Shown in pieces: positions 4,051 to 11,715 of a DNA stretch of 34,396 bases. The translations under genes were made by a program, and so were the position numbers. The notes under the pieces are model-generated. The model made no database searches. It was given only the letters and a program-made list of their open reading frames with translations, and had not been told where the DNA came from. Every line of letters begins with the position of its first letter. Within the stretch, counting starts at the first letter, position 1. This DNA is from an uncultured Clostridia bacterium. Lineage in GTDB: Bacteria; Bacillota; Clostridia; Christensenellales; UBA1242. The DNA is taken from the NCBI GenBank assembly GCA_904397185.1, contig CAJFOL010000030.1, positions 1 through 34,396 on the forward strand, in the 5' to 3' direction.

Positions 4051-4170
4051 TTAATAAACATATGACTAAGAAAATGTTAATTATTTTATATGAATCTACT
4101 TAATTTAAATTATATTATCGGAAGCCGAACTTGCTTGCAAGAGTGAGGATTATGGTCATACATACTATGT

Positions 4171-4253
4171 GATGAGTGTGTGAAGCAGACAAATTCGCTA
4201 GAATTTATTAAAATTTTATGCTAATTAAATTTTATCATCACATAGTTTATAAA
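4171..4253 (-). repeat. Intergenic repeat copy A (element shared with 11495-11578)
   Basis: Its reverse complement TTTATAAACTATGTGATGATAAAATTTAATTAGCATAAAATTTTAATAAATTCTAGCGAATTTG aligns nearly base-for-base with copy B. Confidence 0.85.
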
Positions 4254-4263
4254 GCAGACATGA

Positions 4264-4291
4264 AAAATGCACTCATAAATGAGTGCATTTT
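4264..4291 (-). terminator. Intrinsic terminator downstream of rny
   Basis: AAAATGCACTCA-TAAA-TGAGTGCATTTT hairpin with T-run on the minus strand, just past the rny stop. Confidence 0.85.
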
Positions 4292-4303
4292 AATTTATAT
4301 AGG

Positions 4304-5893
4304 TTATTTTGCTGTTTCGGTAACTCTACTCTCCCTAATAACAACAACTTTAATCTGTCCTGGATATTGCATTTCATTCTCGATACGTTTAGCGATATCC
4401 TTTGCCAAAACAAATGATTCATTGTCACTAACTTGGTCAGGTTTTACAATTATTCTAACCTCACGGCCTGCCTGAATTGCATAAGATTTTTCAACACCTT
4501 TAAAATCATTGCATATACTTTCAAGTTGTTCCAGTCTCTTGATATAATTCTCAAAACTTTCTCGTCTCGCACCAGGTCTTGAACTTGAAATTGCATCAGC
4601 AACTTGTACAATGACTGCCTCAACACTTTGGAATGGAACATCACCATGATGTGCTTGAATACAGTGAATTACAGCATCGGATTCTTTATATTTCTTCGCA
4701 AGGTCAACACCGATAGTCACGTGAGTCCCCTCAATTTCATGGTCAAGTGCTTTTCCTATATCATGTAATAATCCACCTCGTTTGGCTATTGCAACATTTG
4801 CTCCAAGTTCGGTAGCAAGAAGTCCAGCAATAATAGCGGTTTCAACACTGTGCTTTAAACAGTTTTGTCCATAACTTGTCCTGTACTTAAGCCTACCTAA
4901 AACTTTTACAAGTTCTGAGTTTAAATTGTAAATGCCAACATCATTACAAGCATTTTCACCCGCTTCTTTGATTGTCCTATCAACTTCTTTTGTCGCTTTA
5001 GCAACGACTTCTTCAATTCTTCCAGGATGAATTCTTCCATCAAGAATAAGTTTTTCAAGCGCAATTCTAGCAATTTCCCTACGAACTGGGTCAAAACTTG
5101 AAATTGTTATTGACTCTGGAGTGTCATCTACTATAAGTTCGACTCCTGTTGCACTTTCAATTGAACGAATATTTCGTCCTTCTCTACCAATAATCCTACC
5201 CTTCATGTCGTCACTAGGAAGAGCAACACTTGTAACTGTCGTCTCTGAAGTAAGATCAGTTGCACATTTTTGAATAGCAGTCACCACTATTTCTCGTGCA
5301 ATCTTGTCTGCATTATTTTTAGTTTCTTCTTCGACTCTCTTAATAATTGCACCAGCATCTTTTTTGGCTTCTTCGGTTACATTTTCAAGTAATATATCCT
5401 TTGCCTCTTTTTTTGTAAGCCCAGATATTTTCTCTAGTTTTTCTAACATTTGGTCTCGAATCTGCTCTTGTTCTTTTATCTTATCTTGCAAAACTATTTT
5501 AGTATTTTCTAGTTGAGACTTTTCGTTCTCTAGTTGTGTTGACTTTGTATCCAAAGTCGTTTCTTTTTTAGTGAGGTACTCTTCTCTTTGGTCAAGTCTT
5601 TCTTCTTGTTTTTGAAGTTCTCCACGTCTTTCTTTCACCTCATTATTGGCTTCATCCCTAATTTTTTGGGCTTCATCTTTAGCCTCAATAAGTGATTCTT
5701 TCTTTATGCTCTTTGCTTCTGCATACGCCTCTTCAATTATCTTTACAGCATTTGATTTACTTTTATCAAGTTTTTTGTTTATGACAATTTTATAAATTAT
5801 AGCCCCAAGTACTGCCCCAACAATCAAGGCAACTACTCCACTAACTACACCGGCGGTCACAGCAGCATCGCATAATATGCTTAAACTGCTCAT
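4304..5893 (-). CDS. rny: Ribonuclease Y
   Basis: N-terminal TM, long coiled coil, KH region ([29 protein letters not shown]) and HD domain ([24 protein letters not shown]). Confidence 0.98.
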
Positions 5894-10968: not shown

Positions 10969-11457
10969 TTACACTTTGTTTTGATTTAAACTTGGACTTG
11001 TTTGACTATGGCAAATAGCGACTGCAAGTGCATCTGCAGCATCATCTGGTTTTGGTATTGAATTAAGCCCCAAAATTGCCTTAACCATGTATTGAACTTG
11101 TGCTTTTTCTGCTCGTCCCTGTCCTGTAAGTGCTTGTTTTATTTGAAGCGGTGTGTATTCATAAATGTTTCCGCAATATTTTTGACAAGCAAGAACAATC
11201 ACACCTCTCGCCTGGGCAACTTGGATGATGGTCTTTTGATTTTTAAAATAAAAAAGTTCCTCAATTGCCACGACCTCTGGCTTAAATTTATCAAATAAAT
11301 ATTTGAGGCTAGCATCTATCGCTTCTAGTCTCACTGGCAAACTATCTTCCTTTGGTGTCGTTATTGCACCATAATCAACAACCATATCTTTTTTTGATGT
11401 GTCGATTATACCATAACCTATTATTGCATAACCTGGGTCTATTCCTAAAATTACCAT
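10969..11457 (-). CDS. ruvC: Crossover junction endodeoxyribonuclease RuvC
   Basis: MVILGIDPGYAIIGYG, VVAIEELFYFKNQKTI, PDDAADALAVAICH. Confidence 0.97.
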   Translation of the reverse strand: MVILGIDPGYAIIGYGIIDTSKKDMVVDYGAITTPKEDSLPVRLEAIDASLKYLFDKFKPEVVAIEELFYFKNQKTIIQVAQARGVIVLACQKYCGNIYEYTPLQIKQALTGQGRAEKAQVQYMVKAILGLNSIPKPDDAADALAVAICHSQTSPSLNQNKV

Positions 11458-11494: not shown

Positions 11495-11578
11495 TTTATA
11501 AACTATGTGATGATAAAATTTTATTTGCATAAAATTTTATTAAATTCTAAAGAATTTGGTGCTTTGCCCACCAGCACA
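11495..11578 (+). repeat. Intergenic repeat copy B
   Basis: TTTATAAACTATGTGATGATAAAATTTTATTTGCATAAAATTTTATTAAATTCTAAAGAATTTGGTGCTT matches the reverse complement of 4171-4253. Confidence 0.85.
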
Positions 11579-11715
11579 AGTTTAAATAAAAGTCAGCCTC
11601 GTTCAAATGTGACTTTACCACAATTAACTGTATAAACTTTTAGAAGTAATATTTTTTAATTCAGTTATCCCTCCTCAAAACCTAAATATATCTTCTCAAA
11701 AAATAAAAATGGTAG

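Follow-up and report, generated by a model that had tools for sequence, protein, structure and literature searches.

The intergenic region beside the rny gene, in the 34,396-nucleotide stretch of DNA from an uncultured Clostridia bacterium that was analysed as a whole (hereafter the window), raises the question of what kind of repeat lies there and how it reached this position. A first-pass annotation, made from the sequence alone, had proposed that positions 4171-4253 (copy A) and a second site of the window (copy B) are copies of a MITE-like or REP-like mobile element, the former inserted next to the rny terminator. Small mobile repeats that encode no protein shape many bacterial genomes, and the mode of movement is known for very few of them. 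The family described here offers several handles in this respect: a fold maintained through compensatory changes, ends that can be defined, a joining site and an orientation that are both fixed, and a genus-wide hairpin that is also present in elements linked to tRNA genes. The best overall explanation, to which a probability of about 0.7 is assigned, is a mobile DNA element of 140-155 bp, folded, non-autonomous and without protein, which is restricted to one genus.

The similarity between the two sites was confirmed, as positions 4190-4253 align with 11495-11558 over 64 nt at 92% and the shared core ACTATGTGATGATAAAATTT (20 nt) occurs exactly twice, the expectation in shuffled sequence being 0.03 even when 3 mismatches are tolerated. 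The inverted 12-mer ACTATGTGATGA was found at 4164-4175 (+) and 4235-4246 (-), with a further occurrence at 11502 (+). The AAATTC-N4-GAATTT stem with its two loops (TAGC and TAAA) and the direct repeat AAGCAGACA at 4183-4191 and 4252-4260 are directly visible in the sequence. The limits of both copies had to be redrawn, the ends of copy A being defined by about 84 aligned copies. Copy A extends well beyond the 83 nucleotides first reported (Table 1), its 3' third, consisting of P5 and the tail CTTCCGATAATATAA (4110-4163), having been overlooked. The inverted repeats, originally described as terminal, consist of a left arm located at one end and a right arm internal to the element; the true ends form a direct repeat of TATAA. 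Copy B, regarded as a fragment of about 65 bp, is a decayed full-length copy. On the element strand, the parts follow each other in the order TATAA, ACTATGTGATG, P2, P3, P4, CATCACATAGT, the linker ATGTATGACCATC, P5 and the tail TCCGATAATATAA. P1 is an 11-bp stem formed around P2-P4, and P5 is a fourth hairpin built around a 20-nt motif. The first of the two AAGCAGACA copies is located inside P4 of copy A, at a place where P4 of most other copies displays a different base, and the second lies outside the element and shows no sign of belonging to it. The presence of this repeat in P4 and in the left flank may be due to chance or to local conversion.

Table 1. Coordinates of the element copies, their parts and the neighbouring features (window positions unless another contig is named)
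Feature	Position	Strand	Basis or remark
Copy A, complete 142-bp element	4110-4251	-	Own match 100%; 94% to family consensus over 1-142; ends from about 84 aligned copies
Left terminal TATAA of copy A	4247-4251	-	5 bp common to neighbouring copies in arrays; exact overlap in 17/18 adjacent pairs
P1 left arm ACTATGTGATG	4236-4246	-	Pairing in 92.7% of cells (59 copies), with compensatory changes
Hairpin P2	4208-4235	-	97.2% of cells paired; two alternative versions
Hairpin P3, AAATTC-TAGC-GAATTT	4191-4206	-	TTTTGC..GCAAAA version in other copies; read from copies
Hairpin P4	4176-4190	-	GTGTGC..GCACAC or ACACAA..TTGTGT in other copies; two-sided changes in 6/6 pairs
P1 right arm CATCACATAGT, internal to element	4164-4174	-	Partner of 4236-4246
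Hairpin P5	4123-4150	-	97.6% of cells paired in family; 5/6 pairs covary across element types of the genus
20-nt motif TCACYCTTGCAAGCAAGTTC within P5, common to several element types of the genus	4127-4146	-	19/37 genus genomes, 0/24 outside
Right terminal TATAA of copy A	4110-4114	-	End alignment, flank scan, array junctions
rny intrinsic terminator-like hairpin, outside element, adjoining copy A	4264-4291	-	Read from sequence
rny (RNase Y)	4304-5893		Neighbour of copy A
Copy B, full-length but decayed, with the other version of P5; lies upstream of ruvC	about 11497-11652	+	Whole-length alignment to L042, an element of another species
ruvC	10969-11457	-	Copy B upstream
Putative dif	L396:1186-1213 = G171 contig 1, about 121186-121213 (about 121 kb)		

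The host assembly (1.19 Mb in 128 contigs, fragmented and 75% complete) was searched with the copy A region and returned 34 matches at E below 1e-6. About 27 of these run into a contig end, which indicates that the repeat itself is one cause of the assembly breaks and explains part of the fragmentation. Matches were also obtained in 19 of 61 relative genomes, all of them among the 37 genomes of the host genus, and none was present in 24 other families of the order (0/24). In seven of the 19 genomes the matches are all short and partial and mostly fall in the P5 region, and the number of matches per species within the genus ranges from 0 to more than 20. The named relatives retrieved via RNase Y are MAGs of uncultured gut Clostridia. 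This is a dispersed repeat family restricted to one genus of such organisms. The element codes for no protein, and no gene is clearly interrupted by any of the 71 extracted copies, which are intergenic, upstream or downstream of genes, in both orientations relative to them and often located just past gene ends. A phage, plasmid or viral origin was discarded, as no copy was found in the viral contigs, phages and plasmids searched. Rfam returned no gathering-level match in the window, and tRNA genes alone passed the gathering scores in six element loci.

The rny / Sm_multidrug_ex gene order is kept in relatives and, in those displayed, the intergenic region contains no element, with the exception of L064, where a diverged copy is found between the two genes at another position and in another orientation. 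The site of copy A is empty in spite of this conserved order. At a second locus, G028 carries a 143-bp copy where four relatives show a gap of about 15-25 bp. Such empty sites were compared between species rather than strains and thus do not give the exact pre-insertion sequence of any copy. The proposal of a mobile, MITE-like element inserted beside the rny terminator is upheld by the many dispersed copies, the defined ends and the lack of an element at this site in relatives where the order of the genes is conserved; copy A showed neither a restriction to two copies, nor a lack of defined ends, nor orthologous conservation. The element is very likely a non-autonomous mobile DNA element. The ruvC-yebC intergenic region contains an element both in L152 (G029 contig 1, near 58 kb) and in the window at the site of copy B, in the same orientation and at different positions; either an independent insertion or an ancestral copy could account for this pair.

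The fold of copy A is much better than that of shuffled sequences, with z -4.6 as DNA and z -2.9 as RNA. Pairing statistics were calculated from an alignment of 59 copies built without structure. Paired bases were found in 94.6% of cells, when a control using slid pairing partners reached at most 44%, and 171 cells display changes on both sides versus 60.6 in shuffles. The hairpins have alternatives that are unrelated to each other and yet paired. Two versions, differing on both sides of the stem, were seen for P4 and for the inner part of P2, and two versions also occur for P3 and P5. The combinations of these versions differ among copies, which shows that reshuffling of the modules has taken place. 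No RNA-like wobble bias is apparent in this alignment, as 32 G-T cells were counted versus 35 A-C cells; from these modest counts we infer that it is the folded DNA that matters, unlike what conservation as RNA would produce, and recognition of folded DNA rather than RNA is somewhat favoured.

All 18 adjacent element pairs are arranged head-to-tail, none being in opposite orientation, and the two members overlap by exactly 5 bp (TATAA) in 17 pairs and by 4 bp in one. In 13 of the 18, the members belong to different subtypes with 61-87% identity; these arrays are therefore elements joined end to end, and a local tandem duplication is ruled out as their source. Single copies favour TAA before and (A)TTA after TATAA. 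The target-site duplication that the annotation had suggested defining could not be detected: left and right flanks of 46 single copies showed no concordance under 2142 boundary settings, a scan weakened by the decayed ends of old copies. In L353, a nearly identical recent copy, TATAA on the left and TATTG on the right are unlike a target-site duplication, the right terminal bases being variable even in such a young copy.

Insertion is probably free of target-site duplication, orientation-specific and directed to element ends. In the mechanism proposed here, a recombinase or single-stranded DNA transposase encoded elsewhere in the host would recognise the folded element by P1-P4 on the left and P5 on the right, and would insert it, always in the same orientation, at degenerate TAA-TATAAA-TTA sites. 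The end of the element itself would be the best target site, in such a way that new copies attach to old ones. No enzyme that moves the element was found; a site-specific recombinase of another kind than Xer or an HUH-type enzyme acting in trans would be the candidates.

Several other explanations were considered. A conserved functional UTR or regulatory RNA, such as an rny 3'UTR or terminator element, would agree with the strong conserved fold, with copies often lying immediately beyond gene ends and with the recurrence, in low-copy species, of P5-bearing relatives next to the same tRNA and close to the same hisS-like gene. For copy A, the empty orthologous sites refute a conserved UTR; for the family an RNA role is improbable in view of the placement both upstream and downstream of genes in either orientation, of G-T cells no commoner than A-C cells, of a match number so variable across the species of one genus and of the absence of any Rfam match. 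Also unlikely is a classical MITE mobilised by a DDE transposase (IS630/Tc1-like or similar) and flanked by a TATAA or TA target duplication. The size, the A+T-rich ends, the TATAA at both of them and the intergenic dispersal are what such a MITE would display, and insertion into a flanking duplicate could generate arrays with a single shared TATAA. Its termini should nevertheless be inverted repeats of one another, which they are not, the left and right flanks lack concordance, and DDE insertion into TATAA should give both orientations where 18 of 18 adjacent pairs have the same one. The annotation had suggested looking for a full-length element that carries a transposase; the flanking regions fetched contain no longer element sharing these ends, and an autonomous partner elsewhere in the genomes may have been missed. 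The arrays could more generally be read as the product of a TATAA target-site duplication combined with a strong target preference, which would likewise leave a single common TATAA between copies and would leave the single orientation unexplained.

Single-stranded DNA transposition in trans by an HUH/Y1 enzyme (IS200/IS605 or RAYT-like) fits all the formal features, namely subterminal hairpins, no target-site duplication, insertion 3' of a short target and fixed orientation, and IS200-type genes were observed in three congeners (G008, G022 and G171), all of which carry the element. This remains a doubtful candidate, since a scan of the host genome (75% complete) and of 22 of the 36 congeners of the first search detected no Y1 transposase gene (PF01797) in the host or in 20 of these congeners, and only unrelated IS200 in the two others, since the IS200 copies seen have end hairpins of their own, different from those of the element, and since the right terminal bases vary as noted for L353. 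Reverse transcriptase was rejected as the mover, as none was found in the host genome and its presence does not track the element. An Xer/dif-dependent (IMEX-like) element would be in line with the copy-copy junction, which resembles the Firmicutes dif in about 21 of 28 bases, and with the flanks: the fit of those on the right to an XerD-like arm peaks exactly at the register expected (mean 4.66 of 11 versus about 3.7 at other offsets), and so does the fit of those on the left to a XerC-like arm at its own register. This mechanism is very improbable all the same, because searches of the genus detected no recurring canonical dif, nor did a looser search in ten genomes, because a putative dif of the genus is unlike the element junction, and because insertion at scores of scattered places would not be expected of XerCD. 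It is largely ruled out provided that this putative dif is the real one, and another tyrosine recombinase is possible.

The putative dif is a 28-bp near-perfect palindrome, TATTCGCAAAA-CCTGTC-TTTTGCGAATA, located at a sharp GC-skew switch of G171 contig 1, and is probably an unusual dif site of the genus. An alternative form, TATGCGTAAAA-CTTGTG-TTTTACGCATA, displays compensatory changes in the arms. The site was also observed in L070, L073, L077, L081, L083, L091, L100-L102, L113, L116, L117, L119, L120, L166, L178 and L186, often within 3 kb downstream of rny.

The family is similar to other tiny mobile repeats of bacteria, but its folded design is unusually well conserved; the general properties of such repeats are reviewed in PMC2229807, those of REPs in PMC3733652. 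In terms of behaviour, the nearest system is bcr1-bcr3 of the Bacillus cereus group. These repeats are MITE-like and lineage-restricted, TTTAT motifs recur in them, and a mechanism akin to site-specific recombination has been suggested for them (PMC6542083, PMC3446304). In the bcr group A repeats, the 5-bp TTTAT motif is found at the ends and between tandem copies (PMC6542083), as TATAA is common to junctions in 17 of 18 pairs here, and the BCRs (100-400 bp) are likewise short, lineage-restricted, intergenic, high-copy and MITE-like. They differ by an unrelated host and by TTTAT instead of TATAA, whereas the present family has modular hairpins with alternative versions and a P5 shared with tRNA-linked elements; the likeness is one of behaviour alone and no homology is claimed. 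The MITE-type repeats RUP, Correia/NEMIS, ERIC and CIR are also shorter than 200 bp, without protein and mostly intergenic, with A+T-rich, TA-containing ends (PMC2229807), but the present family has no terminal inverted repeats, no detectable target-site duplication and no transposase with matching ends. Rickettsia palindromic elements are comparable in size (105-146 bp), in their predicted long stem-loops and in their genus specificity (PMC2229807); they are often fused in frame inside genes, unlike the copies described here. REPs mobilised by RAYT (GTAG/CGTC REPs, PMC3733652) are palindromic and presumably moved in trans, as here, but the element is far longer and multi-hairpin.

The class names are to be understood accordingly. 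As in MITEs (under about 600 bp), the element is short, non-coding and present in many copies, with more than 30 host matches. The MITE hallmarks of terminal inverted repeats and target-site duplication were not found, the P1 inverted repeat having one arm at the left end and the other inside the element, and 'MITE-like' describes how the element works and not its membership. The term REP-like does not hold in a strict sense: instead of a 20-40 bp palindrome with a GTAG or CGTC tag, copy A is a 142-bp multi-hairpin element without such a tag at the hairpin feet, and no RAYT-type Y1 transposase was found in the host genome. Subterminal hairpins, lack of target-site duplication and single orientation are those of an IS200/IS605 derivative, although the ends are not shared with an IS200/IS605 element. 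For an IMEX, the core should match the host dif, and it does not match the putative one of the genus.

The 20-nt motif of P5 is also present in other elements of the genus, and the reversed control pattern gave 0 matches. These other elements include tandem units of 60 bp and 114 bp (L253 and L248, respectively) and elements located beside tRNA genes (L044, L045, L047, L223 and L227). The latter are laid out as X, hairpins, reverse complement of X, P5 and X again, where X is the tRNA 3' end. The stem on either side of the motif covaries across element types, with 40 two-sided cells versus 12.9 in shuffles. In a 151-genome sample of the order, a P5 covariance model found matches in 7 of 7 congeneric genomes and in none of the 144 others. 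What links these kinds of elements is the common hairpin P5, and a common enzyme is suggested by it. We would only tentatively propose that one recombination system, specific to the genus, moves small folded DNA elements of several kinds; it would recognise all of them via P5 with TCACYCTTGCAAGCAAGTTC, join elements end to end at a short core and also place relatives at tRNA genes. A number of the P5 sites linked to tRNA genes or to hisS occupy the same place in several species; some of them are therefore probably old and vertically inherited.

A few individual arrangements were observed as well. Beside one tRNA gene, several species carry P5 elements, either single or in tandem, with arms that reproduce the 3' end of the tRNA; their location in the genome seems to be the same (L044, L045, L047, L223, L227 and L340). 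In L248 (G005, minus strand), four P5 units of about 114 bp lie in tandem upstream of a hisS-like gene, with the motif at 1491, 1604, 1718 and 1832 of the reverse strand, and G026 and G064 carry a P5 unit at a seemingly corresponding place. In L249 and L252, P5 cores seem to be inserted within tRNA-like sequence (5' half, T-arm-like), tRNA-like fragments being found on both sides.
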